The position numbers were made by a program, and so were the translations under genes. From Ilumatobacteraceae bacterium (GTDB lineage: Bacteria > Actinomycetota > Acidimicrobiia > Acidimicrobiales > Ilumatobacteraceae), in the NCBI GenBank assembly GCA_016650435.1, contig JAENVT010000414.1, positions 1-7,439 on the forward strand: DNA of 7,439 bases. Reading direction: 5' to 3'. A model generated the notes under the pieces. The model was not told the DNA's origin. It worked only from the letters and a program-made list of their open reading frames with translations, and searched no databases. This document shows, piece by piece, positions 2,738-7,439 of this stretch (position 1 is its first letter; the number at the start of each line of letters is the position of its first letter).

Positions 2738-3507
2738 GCACGCTCGAAATACGCGACCTGGTTGCGTCGGTTGCCGGCAAGACAATTCTCAACGGCATCA
2801 CCTTGACGGTGCGCTCTGGCGAGGTTCATGCCGTCATGGGCCCGAACGGTGCAGGCAAGAGCACCTTGTCGGCCGTCGTCATGGGCAAGCCGGGCTACGA
2901 GGTGATCTCCGGTTCGGTGCTGCTGGATGGCGTCGACATGCTGTCGCTGCCGAGTTGGCAACGTGCGCAGGCCGGGTTGCATCTGGTGATGCAGTATCCC
3001 ACCGAGGTACCCGGAGTTCAGCTGGTCGACGTCATGCATCACGCTTTTGCCGCGAGGGGCATGGGCACGGCGGGGCTCGACGAGCGCCTGCAAGCCGAGG
3101 CGCTGCGTATCGGGTTCGATGCGGCATTGTTCGAGCGGGCACTCAACGTCGACCTCTCCGGTGGTGAGAAGAAGCGCAACGAAACCCTGCAGGTGGCAAT
3201 GCTGGAGCCAAAGATCGTCATCCTCGACGAACTCGACTCCGGTCTCGACATCGACGCGTTGCGGGATTGCGCTCAGCGCATCGAGGCGCTGACCAACGAG
3301 CAGAATCTCGGCGTGCTGGCCATAACCCACTACAACCGGCTGCTTGAGGTGTTGCATCCGGACCACGTACACATTCTCGTGAAGGGCCGCATCGTGTCGT
3401 CAGGCGGAGCAGAGCTTGCCGACCAGCTCGAGGTCGATGGCTACGCGGCGTTCGTCAGCAGCGACGAAGAGCCCAGCGGTGGCGCTCTCGCCGATTTGTT
3501 CGGGTAG
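2734..3507 (+). CDS. sufC: SufC, ABC-type ATPase of the SUF system
   Basis: This encodes 257 aa, the usual SufC length. SufC is the soluble ATPase that drives conformational change in the SufB-SufC2-SufD scaffold. Motifs in order: Walker A GPNGAGKST (36-44), Q-loop Gln87 in MQYPTEVPG, ABC signature LSGGEKKRNE (141-150), Walker B IVILDELDSGLD (161-172) and H-loop His199 in ITHYNRLL. The signature KKRNE and the ELDSGLD form (instead of EPTSGLD) are SufC hallmarks. No transmembrane domain is present, as expected. I chose the GTG at 2734, which overlaps the ferredoxin stop (GTGA), has GGAGGA just upstream, and starts the protein at the family's usual STLEIRDL. It is the last suf gene seen here; the expected sufS and sufU do not follow. 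Confidence 0.95.
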   Translation: MSTLEIRDLVASVAGKTILNGITLTVRSGEVHAVMGPNGAGKSTLSAVVMGKPGYEVISGSVLLDGVDMLSLPSWQRAQAGLHLVMQYPTEVPGVQLVDVMHHAFAARGMGTAGLDERLQAEALRIGFDAALFERALNVDLSGGEKKRNETLQVAMLEPKIVILDELDSGLDIDALRDCAQRIEALTNEQNLGVLAITHYNRLLEVLHPDHVHILVKGRIVSSGGAELADQLEVDGYAAFVSSDEEPSGGALADLFG

Positions 3508-3522
3508 GCCAAACGACTCAAA

Positions 3523-3536
3523 CCGCGTTTCCGCGG
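3523..3536 (+). terminator. Weak hairpin after sufC
   Basis: CCGCG (3523-3527) and CGCGG (3532-3536) pair around a TTTC loop, 15 bp past the sufC stop. The stem is only 5 bp and no U-run follows, so it may be a weak terminator or nothing. Confidence 0.3.
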
Positions 3537-3645
3537 GGATTGGTCGCCTGACCCTTCGTGGGCACGCGTCACTGGACGCGGTTGTCCATCTGCGGTGTCC
3601 GTGCTGTCGGGGCGGTACGTCCCGCTCAGATGTTGCAGGTAGACC

Positions 3646-3672
3646 GATTTTCTTGATGATGTCCTGAAAATC
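3646..3672. repeat. GATTTTC/GAAAATC inverted repeat upstream of the peptide operon
   Basis: GATTTTC (3646-3652) is matched by its exact inverse GAAAATC (3666-3672) over a 13-nt spacer. A third copy, GATTTTC, lies at 3701-3707, directly before the proposed -10 box, within the ATGA-TTT-TCAT palindrome (3699-3709). The shared heptamer and its position suggest an operator for the downstream operon; no regulator is recognised. Confidence 0.35.
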
Positions 3673-3712
3673 ACTTAAGGATCAGCGTCTAGGTCCCGAT
3701 GATTTTCATGCG

Positions 3713-3718
3713 TATAAC
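3713..3718 (+). promoter_or_regulatory. -10 box of the peptide/GGDEF-EAL operon promoter
   Basis: TATAAC matches TATAAT at five of six positions and stands out in GC-rich DNA. Transcription would start near 3725, giving a leader of about 67 nt before the first peptide gene. The hexamer 17 bp upstream (TAGGTC, 3690-3695) is a poor -35 match, so an activator or another sigma factor may be needed. Confidence 0.45.
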
Positions 3719-3724
3719 AACGGG

Positions 3725-3758
3725 GCACGGTGGAGGTGAACGGCGGACGCCGCCGTGC
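3725..3758 (+). promoter_or_regulatory. Leader hairpin in the 5' UTR of the peptide operon
   Basis: GCACGGTGG (3725-3733) pairs with CCGCCGTGC (3750-3758): nine base pairs including one G-U, with a 16-nt loop that itself contains GGCGGACG. It begins where the transcript is predicted to start and ends 19 nt before the ribosome binding site. It could stabilise the mRNA 5' end or act as a regulatory leader. I cannot match it to a known riboswitch class. Confidence 0.4.
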
Positions 3759-3777
3759 GATGGACGGACTGCCGAGC

Positions 3778-3783
3778 AGGAGG
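3778..3783 (+). promoter_or_regulatory. Strong Shine-Dalgarno site for peptide gene 1
   Basis: AGGAGG lies 8 nt before the ATG at 3792. It is the best ribosome binding site in the window. It fixes the start of the 31-aa peptide and excludes the in-frame ATG at 3699, which has none and lies upstream of the proposed promoter. Confidence 0.75.
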
Positions 3784-3791
3784 GACGCAAT

Positions 3792-3887
3792 ATGCGTCAG
3801 CAAGCGAAAACAACCATCTACAGGCTGGCGCCGGTTGTGATGCTCGCCATCACACTCGCAGCGCCATCTAAATGGAGCGTCAGATGA
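3792..3887 (+). CDS. Small hydrophobic peptide 1 (31 aa), first of a tandem pair
   Basis: This 31-aa mini-protein begins MRQQAK, has a basic N-terminus (Arg2, Lys6, Arg11), a hydrophobic segment at about 12-25 (LAPVVMLAITLAAP) and the tail PSKWSVR. It has the n- and h-regions of an export signal or a very short membrane peptide. A cleavage after LAA would release a heptapeptide, but Pro at +1 disfavours this. Its tail resembles that of the next peptide (AP, then S or W, then KWS). Strong translation signals (AGGAGG, 8-nt spacing) and an exact 4-bp overlap with the next mini-gene support real expression. It heads a same-strand run leading to a membrane GGDEF-EAL protein. I know no named family. 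Possible roles are a secreted signal, a regulator of the membrane protein, or a leader peptide controlling downstream expression. Confidence 0.6.
   Translation: MRQQAKTTIYRLAPVVMLAITLAAPSKWSVR
3874..3877 (+). promoter_or_regulatory. Shine-Dalgarno site for peptide gene 2
   Basis: GGAG lies 6 nt before the ATG at 3884, inside the end of peptide gene 1. With the ATGA overlap it points to coupled translation of the two mini-genes. Confidence 0.55.
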
Positions 3888-3982
3888 GAAGCTTTAAGCA
3901 CACATCGGTACGCGCCGCCGGGGCAATCGCAACATTCGTTGCGTTGATCTCGTCGGTCGGTGCGCCTTGGAAATGGTCCTGA
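3884..3982 (+). CDS. Small hydrophobic peptide 2 (32 aa), second of a tandem pair
   Basis: This 32-aa mini-protein begins MRSFKHTSVR, has a hydrophobic segment at about 11-27 (AAGAIATFVALISSVGA) and ends PWKWS. The layout is that of peptide 1: MR start, basic N-terminus, one hydrophobic stretch, and a short tail with AP and KWS. The two look like diverged copies, although they are too short for a firm homology claim. The start overlaps the peptide 1 stop by 4 bp and has GGAG 6 nt upstream. If processed as a signal peptide after VGA, the released tail would be a pentapeptide rich in Trp, but Pro at +1 again disfavours this. Two Trp codons lie just before the stop, and a GC-rich hairpin follows 9 nt later, so a leader-peptide role is an alternative. 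The GGDEF-EAL start is 79 nt downstream. Confidence 0.6.
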   Translation: MRSFKHTSVRAAGAIATFVALISSVGAPWKWS

Positions 3983-3991
3983 GCTGAGTTT

Positions 3992-4021
3992 GCGGCGCGG
4001 TGCGTCCCAGCCCCGCGCCGC
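3992..4021 (+). promoter_or_regulatory. GC-rich hairpin between peptide gene 2 and the GGDEF-EAL gene, possible attenuator
   Basis: GCGGCGCGG (3992-4000) and CCGCGCCGC (4013-4021) form a perfect 9-bp stem with a 12-nt loop. It lies 9 nt after the peptide 2 stop and 40 nt before the GGDEF-EAL start. No U-run follows, so it is not a classical intrinsic terminator. The left arm could also pair with CGCGCCGC at 3911-3918 inside peptide gene 2, making two mutually exclusive folds. Confidence 0.5.
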
Positions 4022-4048
4022 CACGCTCATCCGACTCGTAGTAGATCA

Positions 4049-4052
4049 AGGA
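4049..4052 (+). promoter_or_regulatory. Shine-Dalgarno site that sets the GGDEF-EAL start
   Basis: AGGA, within AAGGAAG (4048-4054), lies 9 nt upstream of the GTG at 4062. It supports this start over the GTG at 3960, which lies inside peptide gene 2 and has no such site. Confidence 0.6.
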
Positions 4053-4061
4053 AGTCCGCTG

Positions 4062-6089
4062 GTGCCCGACAACTCGACCAATCAGGATTCGAGGCACAGG
4101 CTGGTCGATATCTATGTCGCCTCGGTGGCTGTCGCCGCTGTCCTCCTGACGTTTCTGGTCTTTGCGTTGAGCAAGCACAGCATCATTCCGCCGTCGAAGG
4201 GCGTGTACATCGGAATCTTCTGCGGGCTGTTGTTCATCGGCGAGACGAGAACCAGGTGGTTCCGTTTCGGCGACGGTGGCCAAGTCACGCCTGGCTGGGC
4301 ATTCGCCTTCAGCATCGTGTTGCTGGGTTCGCCGCTTGTTGCAATTGCGGCCATGGCCGCGTGCACGCTCTTCGTGGATGTTCGCGACCACAAGTCGGTG
4401 TCCAAGATCGTCTTCAACGCCGCGCAGATCACGGCATCGCTTGCTGCGGGCGCAATCGTTTTGCAACTGCTCGGTCTCGACTCACCGATCACCGATGCCG
4501 GTCGGCTGTCGTATCGCTGGGGTATCGGGATCGTAGTGTCCGGCGGCCTGGTGTTCATCGCCAACGGTCTGTTGACGTGCATCGTGCTTGCGTTGCACTA
4601 CAAGACCAGCTTGCGTTCGATGATGGGTCGCAGCTTCTTCGTCAGCATCTCAGCCGATGGTGCACTGTTGGCACTGTCACCGATCTTCGTCGTCGCAATC
4701 CACTTCAGCCTGATGATGTTGCCACTCCTCGGCGTGACCGCGTTGTTGATCTACCAAAGCACGCAGCAGGCATTGCGACGTGCCCACGAGGCCAACCACG
4801 ACGGCCTGACTCACCTTCTCAATCGACGCACGTTCGACAATCATCTGTCCGGATTTCTGGCGTCGAACCCAGACGAGGTTCGTGGCGCCATTCTGCTGTT
4901 GGACCTTGACGGCTTCAAGGAGATCAACGATCGCCTCGGTCACCAGACGGGTGACATGGTGTTGCTCGGCATCGCCGATCAACTCACACGGTCTGCGCCT
5001 GAGGCAGCCGTCGTCGCCCGCCTCGGCGGTGACGAATTCGCCGTGCTGATTCCCGACGTCGGGTCCGACGCGTCGACCATGGCGATCGTCGAACAACTCC
5101 GCATCGAACTCACCCGGCCCATCGTCGTCGACGGCTTCCCGCTGTCGGTCGGTGTCAGCATCGGTTTGGCATTTGCCCCAACGCACGGTCGCACTCCGGA
5201 GGATCTGTTGAGCGCCGCCGACGTCGCCATGTACCGCGCCAAGCGGTACCGCACCGGCGTAGAGACCTACAAGGCGCTGGGCTCGCGGCCCGAGCGCGGC
5301 CGTCTTGGCTTGCTGGGGGAGTTGTCGAATGCCATCGGTGCCGATCAGCTCAAGGTCCACTATCAGCCGCTGACACGTTTCCGCGATGGTGCCCCGGATT
5401 CCATGGAGGCGTTGTTGCGTTGGCAGCACCCGACCCTCGGTCAGGTGCCGCCGGGCGACTTCATCACGCTCGCCGAGCACACCGATCTCATCGGTCCGCT
5501 CACGCAATTCGTCCTGACGCAGTCGACCCAGGATGCGCGTGCTGTCGACCGCTTCGACATGCGACTCTCGATCAACGTCTCCGCTCGTAACCTTCAGGAC
5601 CGTCGCTTCCCGTCGAGCGTGCTGAAGGCATTGGACGAAGCAGCGCTCAACCCTGCGCGGCTCGAGCTGGAGATCACCGAGAGCGCCATCGCCAGCGAGC
5701 CCGAGCGCAGCCTGTTCGCGATCAGCGCGCTGCGTGAAGCCGGCGTGCGAGTTGCAATCGATGACTTCGGTACCGGATATTCGTCGTTCAGCATGCTGCG
5801 CGACTTCACGGTCGATCGATTGAAGATCGACGCCAGCTTCGTCGAAGGAATCGCCCACAGTCAGCGTCAGCAACACCTCGTCAAAGCGATCGTTGCTCTG
5901 GCAAAGGGACTTGGAATCGAAACCGTCGCCGAGGGAGTCGAGACCGAGGAAGCGTGGATCACGCTCGCGAACCTCGGCTGCGACGTCGCTCAGGGTTACC
6001 TGATCTGCCGTCCGGTGCCATTGTTCGAGCTGGTCGAATGGCTCGACATCCGCCAATCGATGTCGGCATTGGAGCACGTGTCGTCATGA
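4062..6089 (+). CDS. Multi-pass membrane GGDEF-EAL protein (c-di-GMP cyclase/phosphodiesterase)
   Basis: This encodes 675 aa from the GTG at 4062. The N-terminal ~235 residues are a membrane domain with about six or seven hydrophobic helices (near 15-36, 47-60, 78-103, 113-137, 155-176 and two at 192-232). It contains a KIVFNAAQ segment; I do not match it to a named MASE or MHYT sensor. A GGDEF domain follows, with intact GGDEF at 322-326, so cyclase activity is plausible. The RxxD inhibitory site expected at 313-316 is PEAA, so product inhibition at that site should be absent. The C-terminal EAL domain has EALLRW (449-454), Asn505, the LEITES glutamates (537, 540), DDFGTGYSS (from 567), Lys588, Glu624 and Gln644, all consistent with active c-di-GMP hydrolysis. 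The protein probably senses a signal in or outside the membrane and sets c-di-GMP levels. Net direction cannot be told from sequence. It follows two peptide genes and overlaps the next gene by 4 bp. Confidence 0.93.
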   Translation: MPDNSTNQDSRHRLVDIYVASVAVAAVLLTFLVFALSKHSIIPPSKGVYIGIFCGLLFIGETRTRWFRFGDGGQVTPGWAFAFSIVLLGSPLVAIAAMAACTLFVDVRDHKSVSKIVFNAAQITASLAAGAIVLQLLGLDSPITDAGRLSYRWGIGIVVSGGLVFIANGLLTCIVLALHYKTSLRSMMGRSFFVSISADGALLALSPIFVVAIHFSLMMLPLLGVTALLIYQSTQQALRRAHEANHDGLTHLLNRRTFDNHLSGFLASNPDEVRGAILLLDLDGFKEINDRLGHQTGDMVLLGIADQLTRSAPEAAVVARLGGDEFAVLIPDVGSDASTMAIVEQLRIELTRPIVVDGFPLSVGVSIGLAFAPTHGRTPEDLLSAADVAMYRAKRYRTGVETYKALGSRPERGRLGLLGELSNAIGADQLKVHYQPLTRFRDGAPDSMEALLRWQHPTLGQVPPGDFITLAEHTDLIGPLTQFVLTQSTQDARAVDRFDMRLSINVSARNLQDRRFPSSVLKALDEAALNPARLELEITESAIASEPERSLFAISALREAGVRVAIDDFGTGYSSFSMLRDFTVDRLKIDASFVEGIAHSQRQQHLVKAIVALAKGLGIETVAEGVETEEAWITLANLGCDVAQGYLICRPVPLFELVEWLDIRQSMSALEHVSS

Positions 6090-6658
6090 TCATTGTCGTC
6101 GCCTCGATCGCCGCGATCCTGACGGTCCCATTGACCGGTCGCTCCTTGACTCCGCTGGCCAAACTGGACTTGCGGCGAGTATGGCTGGTTTGGCTGAGCA
6201 TCGGCCTGCAGGTGCTGATCACCTCGGTGCCGAGAATTCCGAACTGGCTCGGTCAACCGGTACACCTCTTCACGTTCGCGCTTTCTGCAGCGTTCTTGTG
6301 GGGCAATCGTCACCTTCCCGGCACCTACATCGTGGCGGCCGGCGCGGCCCTCAACCTTGCCGCGATTGCCGCGAACAACGGGACGATGCCGGCGACACCG
6401 TGGGCATGGCACATGGCTGGATATCCGGTGCTGGTCGATCAGTTCGAGAACTCGAACGTCGTGCACGGTGCACGGCTGTGGTGGCTCGGCGACGTGTTCG
6501 CAATCCCGAAGGGCTGGCCGCTGGCGAACGTGTTCAGCGTCGGCGACGTGATCATCGTGATTGCGGTTGCGTACCTCGCCCACGCCTGGTGCCGTCGCTC
6601 GGCACCCTCAGTTGAGGCCGAATCGATCACGGCTCCGATGCTCGTCACGGCCGACTGA
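6086..6658 (+). CDS. DUF5317 family membrane protein
   Basis: This encodes 190 aa with about five hydrophobic helices (near 2-16, 33-48, 60-72, 80-97 and 150-167). The family pattern I recall for DUF5317 is visible: ANNGTMPA (96-103, the N-x-G-x-MP motif), WWLGDVFAIP (132-141) and NVFSVGDVIIV (148-158). The function of the family is unknown. The ATG overlaps the GGDEF-EAL stop by 4 bp (ATGA) and GGAG lies 11 nt upstream, so the two proteins are co-translated and may work together in the membrane. The reading frame stays open upstream to 5954, but that part is shadow sequence of the EAL domain. The last ~20 residues are a polar cytoplasmic or external tail. Confidence 0.82.
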   Translation: MIIVVASIAAILTVPLTGRSLTPLAKLDLRRVWLVWLSIGLQVLITSVPRIPNWLGQPVHLFTFALSAAFLWGNRHLPGTYIVAAGAALNLAAIAANNGTMPATPWAWHMAGYPVLVDQFENSNVVHGARLWWLGDVFAIPKGWPLANVFSVGDVIIVIAVAYLAHAWCRRSAPSVEAESITAPMLVTAD

Positions 6659-6665
6659 CCTCTCC

Positions 6666-6714
6666 GAACTTTGTCGCTCCGAAGACGTCCAGCGACCTCC
6701 GAGCGACAAACTTC
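6666..6714. repeat. 14-bp arm palindrome with internal repeats, likely terminator or dispersed palindrome
   Basis: GAACTTTGTCGCTC (6666-6679) faces GAGCGACAAACTTC (6701-6714): 13 of 14 positions pair (one C-C mismatch) around a 21-nt loop. Within it CTCCGA occurs three times (6662, 6677, 6697) and AGCGAC three times (inverted at 6673-6678, direct at 6691-6696 and 6702-6707), so alternative stems are possible. It starts 7 bp after the DUF5317 stop, where an operon terminator is expected, but lacks a U-run. It also lies just upstream of the next promoter. It could instead be a dispersed intergenic palindrome or an operator cluster. Confidence 0.6.
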
Positions 6715-6737
6715 CATCGAGCTAGGGCGATCGTGGC

Positions 6738-6743
6738 TACGTT
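6738..6743 (+). promoter_or_regulatory. -10 box of a leaderless promoter for the carbinolamine dehydratase gene
   Basis: TACGTT sits at -12 to -7 relative to the ATG at 6750, the same spacing as TACGCT before the four-cysteine gene. No ribosome binding site precedes the ATG, which fits a leaderless transcript. Confidence 0.45.
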
Positions 6744-6749
6744 TGCTAC

Positions 6750-6989
6750 ATGACCTGGAACGAATCAGACGGCGCGCTGCACGCCGAATTGACCTTTGCC
6801 GATTTCGCCGAAGCCTTTGCGTTCATGACGCGGGTCGGGCTGACGGCGCAGGAGCAGGGACATCATCCCGACATGTCGATCTCGTGGAACGTGGTCACCC
6901 TCACCATCACGACCCACGACGCCGGCAACAAGGTGACCGACAAAGATCGCAAACTGGCCGCGGCGATCGACGCCATGGGCGCGGCGTGA
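6750..6989 (+). CDS. Pterin-4a-carbinolamine dehydratase family protein (short form)
   Basis: This encodes 79 aa of the PCD/DCoH fold, which dehydrates 4a-hydroxytetrahydropterin and so recycles the pterin cofactor of aromatic amino acid hydroxylases. Family features in order: a Trp near the N-terminus (Trp3), F-x-DF-x-EAFAFMTRV (16-29), the active-site segment QGHHPDMS with His38, His39 and Pro40, the strand WNVVTLTITTHD with His56, and VTDKD followed by LAAAID. The usual ~20 residues before the Trp are missing, giving 79 rather than about 95-105 aa; no better upstream start exists, since the leaderless promoter and palindrome lie there. No hydroxylase is nearby, so the true substrate is open; such proteins also serve molybdopterin-related or unknown roles. 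The stop overlaps the next start (GTGA). Confidence 0.85.
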   Translation: MTWNESDGALHAELTFADFAEAFAFMTRVGLTAQEQGHHPDMSISWNVVTLTITTHDAGNKVTDKDRKLAAAIDAMGAA

Positions 6990-7439
6990 ACAAAACGCAC
7001 CCAAACGTCGCTCGCGTTGCCGATGCCGCGGCTGAATTCGGATTGACGATCGAGCCGCGGACGTTTCCTGATGGCACCAAGACCGCCGCCGATGCTGCGG
7101 CAGCAATCGGGGTTCAGGTCGGCCAGATTGTGAAGAGCCTGATCTTCGCAGTCGATGGCGAGGTCGTGTTGGCCTATGTCAGTGGCGCCAATCAACTCGA
7201 CGAGAAGAAACTGGCCGATGCCGCAGGCGGTTCGAACTGCGCCCGCGTCAATGCCGACACTGTGTACGAGACGACGGGCTTTCCAATCGGTGGTGTGCCG
7301 CCATTCGGCCACGCCACGAGTCTGCGGGTGTTCATCGATCCCGATCTTCTTCAGTACGACGAGGTGTGGGCGGCAGCCGGAACCTGGCACGACGTGTTTG
7401 CATTGTCGCCAACTGATCTGGAACGAGTCAGCGGTGGAA
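6986..7439 (+). CDS. YbaK/EbsC-type aminoacyl-tRNA deacylase (5' part, runs off the window)
   Basis: The first 151 codons are present, open at the right edge. The family is a small single-domain editing enzyme that removes wrongly attached amino acids (for example from Cys- or Ala-tRNAPro) in the cytosol. Seen here: an N-terminal helix (NVARVADAAAEFGL), the strand FPDGTKTAADAAAAIG, then QIVKSLIF with the conserved Lys50, LAYVSGANQLDEKKLA, and the substrate-loop segment GFPIGGVPPFGH (98-109), which corresponds to the family GGxxPxG motif. Close relatives are 150-170 aa, so little is missing. The start is the GTG at 6986, overlapping the dehydratase stop by 4 bp without its own ribosome binding site, so translation is coupled. 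The specific tRNA substrate cannot be told. Confidence 0.9.
   Translation, partial: MNKTHPNVARVADAAAEFGLTIEPRTFPDGTKTAADAAAAIGVQVGQIVKSLIFAVDGEVVLAYVSGANQLDEKKLADAAGGSNCARVNADTVYETTGFPIGGVPPFGHATSLRVFIDPDLLQYDEVWAAAGTWHDVFALSPTDLERVSGG

Follow-up and report, generated by a model that had tools for sequence, protein, structure and literature searches.

Linear peptide pheromones, such as those of the Phr/RRNPP systems, the enterococcal sex pheromones and the streptococcal SHP/ComS peptides, are made as tiny Sec pre-peptides and act on cytoplasmic receptors after import. Here we describe two mini-genes whose products resemble such precursors. They lie in a stretch of 7,439 nucleotides from an Ilumatobacteraceae bacterium (contig JAENVT010000414.1; the whole stretch is referred to as the window), ahead of genes for a membrane GGDEF-EAL enzyme of cyclic di-GMP (c-di-GMP) metabolism and a membrane protein of the DUF5317 family. 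The likeness consists of a signal-peptide-like precursor, a short C-terminus as the active part (putative in the window) and a position beside the gene of a would-be sensor. Unlike the RRNPP/Phr systems, the window has no cytoplasmic tetratricopeptide repeat (TPR) receptor family among its ten open reading frames (ORFs) scanned with Pfam, and the neighbours of the mini-genes are instead the membrane c-di-GMP enzyme and DUF5317.

In the AgrD/AgrB system, a tiny peptide likewise adjoins a multi-pass membrane protein, and sensing takes place at the membrane. However, no AgrB was found among the same ten ORFs (DUF5317 is a different Pfam family) and no Cys is conserved in the peptides. KdpF (30 amino acids, aa), DinQ and TimP are small single-segment membrane peptides that the window peptides resemble. 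KdpF is described with a potassium transporter and DinQ and TimP as toxic; none of these descriptions ties the peptide to c-di-GMP or DUF5317.

To our knowledge no stimulus or ligand has been described for DUF5317 or for MASE9 (PF20972), a membrane sensor domain of GGDEF, EAL and HD-GYP proteins that is considered below. A literature search of open-access papers returned nothing on DUF5317 and nothing relevant on MASE9, an absence that is weak given this coverage. The Thermotoga maritima peptide TM0504 has reportedly been proposed to act upstream of c-di-GMP-dependent exopolysaccharide (the literature search gave no confirmation); its host has DUF5317 and MASE9 matches, and any relation of TM0504 to the window peptides would be speculative. 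A 2022 review of c-di-GMP sensing (PMC8846402) counts MASE1 among sensory domains lacking a discernible physiological purpose, and in one place names peptides as ligands that a different domain clan might bind.

Conserved mini-genes linked to a GGDEF-EAL enzyme

The gene for peptide 1 occupies positions 3792-3887 of the + strand (31 aa, MRQQAKTTIYRLAPVVMLAITLAAPSKWSVR) and the gene for peptide 2 positions 3884-3982 of the + strand (32 aa, MRSFKHTSVRAAGAIATFVALISSVGAPWKWS), with a 4-bp overlap (ATGA). Both products are signal-peptide-like, and their C-termini read AP-S-KW-SVR and GAP-W-KWS. A Shine-Dalgarno AGGAGG (3778-3783, + strand) can be read from the sequence 8 nt ahead of the ATG of peptide 1, as can a Shine-Dalgarno-like GGAG (3874-3877, + strand) within peptide 1, 6 nt ahead of the ATG of peptide 2. 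Next on the + strand are the membrane GGDEF-EAL enzyme gene (4062-6089, GTG start, 675 aa) and the DUF5317 membrane protein gene (6086-6658, 190 aa; PF17248, E 1.2e-26), again with a 4-bp ATGA overlap. A preliminary description of this DNA had noted both the overlapping mini-genes with their ribosome binding sites and the same-strand enzyme and DUF5317 genes overlapping by 4 bp; coordinates and Pfam bear it out. From this layout, the mini-genes, the enzyme and DUF5317 likely form one operon. As 49 ORFs of at least 25 aa overlap positions 3300-7439, short ORFs by themselves carry little weight, and conservation decides.

A search with a 40-aa stretch containing peptide 1 gave 23 candidates, all of them homologous (weakest E 3.3e-5), with 77-96% identity across 68-100% of the query; 14 are stand-alone predicted proteins of 29-31 aa. 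With a profile of peptide 2 and a Euzebya peptide (see below), 13 of 20 candidates matched (weakest E 3.5e-10), comprising 12 of the peptide 2 type and one of the Euzebya type, and 10 of the 13 were new. Matches were counted at E <= 10 in both searches. In total, 33 distinct homologous peptide proteins were identified, and this conservation shows that the mini-genes are real genes.

Peptides 1 and 2 align loosely with each other (38% identity over aligned columns) and have in common an MR start and AP-x-KWS near the end. For each peptide, AP-x-KW falls within the last nine residues in only about 1-2 of 10,000 composition-keeping shuffles. We examined 36 sequences (the 33 found, the two window peptides and one Euzebya peptide) and define the AP-x-KW mini-peptide family by this motif close to the C-terminus of a short protein resembling a signal peptide, a motif found in 34 of the 36. 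These 34 sequences hold 36 AP-x-KW motifs, every one with T, S or A at -3 and A or G at -1. Two proteins, P0006 and P0010, are in-frame fusions of peptides 1 and 2 that retain both motifs.

With the membrane domain of the enzyme as query, 147 relatives reached E <= 0.001 out of the 7,996 best candidates; 120 are listed, 117 of these with the size of the longest contig. Several relatives are named Ilumatobacteraceae, which points to an origin of the window in or close to this family of Acidimicrobiia. At least 6 of the 33 peptide proteins share an exact longest-contig size and source with an enzyme homologue (contigs of 76,958, 1,098,374, 6,702, 5,125, 12,277 and 3,619 bases). When sizes were jittered and source was ignored, the mean was 0.20 matches and the maximum 4 over 10,000 trials. 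Six is a lower bound because the longest contig alone is given per cluster and 27 enzyme relatives fall outside those listed. In addition, a 913-base contig from one source is listed both for P0014 and for P0028, which represent the two peptide types. The peptide genes are thus linked to the GGDEF-EAL enzyme in relatives, and the peptide frames are conserved there, the point on which the preliminary description had staked its proposal. In the six pairs, identity to the window is 69-90% for the peptides and 74-91% for the enzymes; given these similar values, the peptides evolve at roughly the pace of the enzyme.

Mini-ORFs beside DUF5317 in two phyla

Four further DUF5317 loci, all confirmed with Pfam, were reached through a DUF5317 search of plasmid records. 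At each of them (Euzebya, Nonomuraea, Natranaerobius and Subdoligranulum) an ORF of 25-34 aa lies near DUF5317 and has the same build: a basic start, a short hydrophobic core, a small-residue site of the signal peptidase type and a tail of 6-9 residues. With the window included, a mini-ORF is present at five of five DUF5317 loci and a c-di-GMP enzyme with a membrane part at four. This association exceeds the earlier proposal of a peptide/c-di-GMP signalling module, since DUF5317 is present at every locus reached through DUF5317 and the enzyme is either GGDEF-EAL or HD-GYP. As a set of linked genes the module is thus real, and its reach is greater than had been suggested; peptide export and sensing by the membrane domain, also part of that proposal, are possible steps weighed below.

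Euzebya pacifica has the same gene order (peptide, enzyme, DUF5317) as the window. Its 29-aa peptide (MSPRTRKALMNLAALVAVILATGAPQKWG, ending GAPQKWG) is followed after 13 nt by a GGDEF-EAL gene, which overlaps by 4 bp a gene whose product joins DUF5317 to an EAL domain and to a GGDEF match under the threshold. From the DUF5317-EAL fusion, DUF5317 acts in the same c-di-GMP pathway in Euzebya. A second, divergent GGDEF-EAL gene (L002:2400-4541) adjoins this peptide locus. In Nonomuraea gerenzanensis, DUF5317 comes first and overlaps (ATGA) the gene for a 34-aa peptide (MKRVKNSPRIAQAVCALFALATLLYTVGAPWDSH, ending VGAPWDSH). Natranaerobius thermophilus encodes a 28-aa peptide (MNKVVLILVTLLGVVLAGGASFTWGGGG), then, after 44 nt, a MASE9-HD-GYP protein and DUF5317. 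Here frame changes interrupt both the HD-GYP gene and the DUF5317 gene (L013:3523-5321), and the many short coding sequences throughout the record suggest decay or assembly error. In Subdoligranulum variabile, the gene for a 25-aa peptide (MKKILFALASLCSLVLASGAFFCVR) precedes by 206 nt an HD-GYP gene whose product is hydrophobic in its N-terminal part; DUF5317 comes next. Both Clostridia loci also encode, upstream of the peptide, a protein of 216-221 aa without a Pfam match (L013:2535-3200 and L017:2339-2989), and these two proteins are 32% identical across 204 aligned columns.

All six DUF5317-linked peptides align through a basic start, a short core and T/S/A-x-(A/G) followed by A, and between families recognisable letters are kept mainly in the region of the small-residue site. 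The evidence for the wider association is limited to five loci, two of them reached via weak matches, with little sequence shared between the phyla. The initial matches to Nonomuraea and Subdoligranulum had E values of 4 and 0.5, and these loci rest on Pfam scores of 64.5 and 81.2 bits (cut-off 25). The mini-ORFs are absent from the gene tables of Euzebya and Natranaerobius (tables that are incomplete by nature), and the Nonomuraea and Subdoligranulum records are almost without annotation. In Pfam and NCBIfam scans, no model matched any of the six peptides or the Nonomuraea mini-ORF at locus L019 described below.

The base rate of such ORFs was estimated with a filter requiring an ATG, a Shine-Dalgarno-like word, 22-38 aa, a net positive start, an uncharged hydrophobic core of 11 and a tail of 4-14. 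It was run on 14 stretches totalling 146,751 bases (the repeated stretches L003, L006, L008 and L014-L016 were left out). Eight ORFs passed: six at the five DUF5317 loci, one at a Nonomuraea HD-GYP gene and one on a viral contig. The small-residue site before A is present in all six DUF5317-linked peptides and absent from the other two. Ten mononucleotide shuffles gave 0.3 passing ORFs per set, none with the site. In four 50-kb stretches (Euzebya, Nonomuraea, Subdoligranulum and Natranaerobius) the one ORF that passed was the Natranaerobius peptide itself. No ORF passed in the four GGDEF-EAL stretches that lack DUF5317 beside the gene (L009 from Nonomuraea, L010 from Nocardia, and L011 and L012 from Deinococcus).

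The passing ORF at the Nonomuraea HD-GYP gene (L019:3659-3763) encodes 34 hydrophobic aa ending PPGVSWT and lies 18 nt ahead of the gene. The HD-GYP protein has a hydrophobic N-terminal part with a sub-threshold MASE9 match, and an apparent second such gene follows it. Viral contigs searched with the peptide and DUF5317 queries gave no relative, and with the GGDEF-EAL query they gave five loci, among which L006 equals L005, and L007 and L008 are the same except at 3 bases. The filter was applied to L004, L005 and L007. Its sole passing ORF, in L005, was rejected: it is without the small-residue site, and two short ORFs lie between it and the GGDEF gene.

Of 14 control genomes, two have a DUF5317 match, Thermus composti and Thermotoga maritima, and these are also the two with a MASE9 match. 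DUF5317 was identified in none of 398 genomes of one phylum, which should be Pseudomonadota, and in no phage at E <= 1. A DUF5317 match in Accumulibacter (L001), obtained from genome contigs, was judged to be chance; the profile finds no DUF5317 in that genome.

Membrane proteins and the role of the peptides

The window enzyme has GGDEF (E 2.1e-40) and EAL (E 3.4e-72) domains in Pfam. Residues of both motifs are invariant in 42 aligned proteins and are retained in the window enzyme, so a c-di-GMP effect could go in either direction. Positions 6086-6655 score 94 bits for DUF5317 against a cut-off of 25 bits. The MASE9 cut-off is passed by four enzyme relatives (P0058, P0059, P0115 and P0127) and by the Natranaerobius HD-GYP protein. 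The membrane domains of the window and Euzebya enzymes are 28% identical across 73% of the query; the enzyme alignment, compared as a profile with the Natranaerobius protein, gave a weak match, and the MASE9 match carries that link. Judging from the four relatives that pass, the membrane domain of the window enzyme may share its mode of action or its ancestry with MASE9 without being a scored member. The model of the full enzyme has a predicted local distance difference test score (pLDDT) of 83.3. The 50 PDB matches listed for it are GGDEF-EAL or EAL-type structures by title and offer nothing informative on the membrane domain. PDB sequence searches gave three matches only for the membrane domain (E 0.7-0.9) and none for DUF5317. 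A DUF5317 model built without an alignment (pLDDT 46.6) was discarded.

The mini-genes are likely to serve the DUF5317/c-di-GMP locus as functional partners. A basic start, a hydrophobic core and a small-residue site form the pattern of a signal peptide with a signal peptidase I site. Small residues at -3 and -1 occur at all 36 AP-x-KW motifs and in the six DUF5317-linked peptides, for which cleavage is predicted. Based on the signal-peptide pattern in the six peptides and the DUF5317-EAL fusion, we favour a secreted or surface peptide read by DUF5317 and the membrane domain, although we put a cleaved exported signal, as opposed to an uncleaved membrane subunit, at a little under an even chance. 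Each mini-gene product would be a pre-peptide that starts basic, continues with some 11-15 hydrophobic residues, has small residues at -3/-1 and ends with 6-8 further residues. After export by Sec, cleavage by signal peptidase I would set APSKWSVR and APWKWS free on the outer side of the membrane. They could be recognised there by DUF5317, by the MASE9-type domain of the GGDEF-EAL enzyme or by both, and recognition could change cellular c-di-GMP. The predicted tails of the six peptides are APSKWSVR, APWKWS, APQKWG, APWDSH, ASFTWGGGG and AFFCVR.

If extended to all loci, this reading would describe a new class of peptide signal in Actinomycetota and Bacillota: 25-34 aa Sec pre-peptides giving linear peptides of 6-9 residues, read at the membrane by DUF5317 and MASE9-type GGDEF-EAL or HD-GYP proteins, with c-di-GMP set directly and without a kinase or import. 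We regard this general form as possible but rather doubtful. The conserved partner gene is a concrete candidate stimulus for MASE9 and DUF5317. If the reading is correct, it adds a direct route from peptide to c-di-GMP, opens a way into the signalling of Ilumatobacteraceae (the family naming several enzyme relatives) and points to a class of genes short enough for annotation to miss easily.

Several observations weigh against an exported peptide signal. The ORF filter was written after the candidates had been seen. Residues 1-243 of the window enzyme gave no MASE9 match at E <= 10 (cut-off 24.3 bits), and among the five loci the cut-off was reached by the Natranaerobius enzyme only, those of the window, Euzebya and Subdoligranulum scoring below it. 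No c-di-GMP gene was recognised on reading the ORFs of the Nonomuraea DUF5317 stretch. AP-x-KW is common to the window relatives and Euzebya only and does not extend to the Nonomuraea and Clostridia peptides; the Nonomuraea peptide shares GAPW, the Clostridia peptides only GA-x-F, and the L019 mini-ORF only a W near the end. GC content at third codon positions is 0.62-0.64 in the peptides versus 0.78-0.80 in their neighbours (at 32-33 codons per peptide). Of the 33 proteins, 4 have a frame change within peptide 1 or at its end: P0016 and P0023, where peptide 1 continues in another frame; P0017, a fusion of peptides 1 and 2 in which the KW of peptide 1 is lost; and P0027, where peptide 1 is in another frame and peptide 2 is retained. 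In P0020 the W is replaced by G. Four of these five exceptions are single-member clusters. The strongest of these observations is that the window relatives show hardly any variation in the signal-like part of peptide 1, whose conservation is similar to that of the enzyme. Faster drift would be expected of an ordinary signal peptide, and thus this favours a membrane subunit.

The peptides would then be uncleaved small membrane subunits or regulators that, in the way of KdpF-type proteins, attach to the transmembrane region of either DUF5317 or the c-di-GMP enzyme. All of peptide 1, not its end alone, changes at a rate close to that of the enzyme, the 4-bp overlaps suggest a fixed dosage, and peptides 1 and 2 are fused in P0006, P0010 and also P0017 (minus the KW of peptide 1). 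However, 15 residues separate R11 from K27 in peptide 1, which is short for a membrane span; with the start inside, the K/R end would lie outside, contrary to the positive-inside rule as judged from the sequence; and all six DUF5317-linked peptides have signal-peptidase-type small-residue sites. We consider this alternative a serious one, though with the odds still against it. The preliminary description had also allowed for a leader-peptide or toxin-like role, and both are disfavoured here. As leader peptides, the mini-genes would control the downstream enzyme gene through their translation, by attenuation, stalling or coupling. A mini-gene is upstream of the enzyme at four of five DUF5317 loci, a W near the stop is conserved, and a GC-rich stem-loop without a T run (3992-4021, + strand), a possible attenuator, terminator or spacer, follows peptide 2 within the 79-nt gap before the enzyme gene. 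Yet the fold of 3980-4065 is unremarkable for its composition (z -1.37; 19 of 200 shuffles equally stable), an Rfam scan of the window found no family at E <= 1, the 13-nt gap in Euzebya is too small for a stem, the Nonomuraea peptide comes after DUF5317, and a 31-aa chain would sit largely inside the ribosome tunnel. We judge a leader function unlikely.

Type I toxin-like membrane peptides with their own silencing, near the enzyme by chance, would have a similar size, basic start and hydrophobic core. This is difficult to reconcile with the linkage to the enzyme family (6 of 33 peptides sharing contig size and source, against 0.2 by chance) and with mini-ORFs at all five DUF5317 loci in two phyla and no other such ORF in 200 kb of control sequence, and we judge it highly unlikely. 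Many short ORFs do arise in this GC-rich window, but homologues down to 69-77% identity, from several sources, keep the length, start and end of the peptides, and shuffles and control stretches are near empty; chance ORFs or gene-calling noise are scarcely credible.

Upstream region and flanks of the locus

A TATAAC at 3713-3718 (+ strand) is a possible -10 promoter element for the mini-genes, a weak candidate picked out by inspection; a consensus promoter scan of 3450-4150 identified no site. Ahead of it is an inverted repeat (TGAAAATCA ... TGATTTTCA, 3665-3708) that is paired in the centroid fold and is a candidate operator or terminator. The fold of 3640-3800 is unremarkable (z -0.84). Positions 3699-3791, ahead of peptide 1, are conserved in P0001, P0003 and P0008. 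As P0008 is partly in another frame, the conservation is probably at the DNA rather than the protein level, and this segment is possibly a conserved 5' leader.

The four-gene + strand locus is flanked by suf genes on one side and a pterin dehydratase gene on the other. Close to the suf genes, a small protein with a SHOCT match under the Pfam cut-off is encoded on the - strand (412-825).

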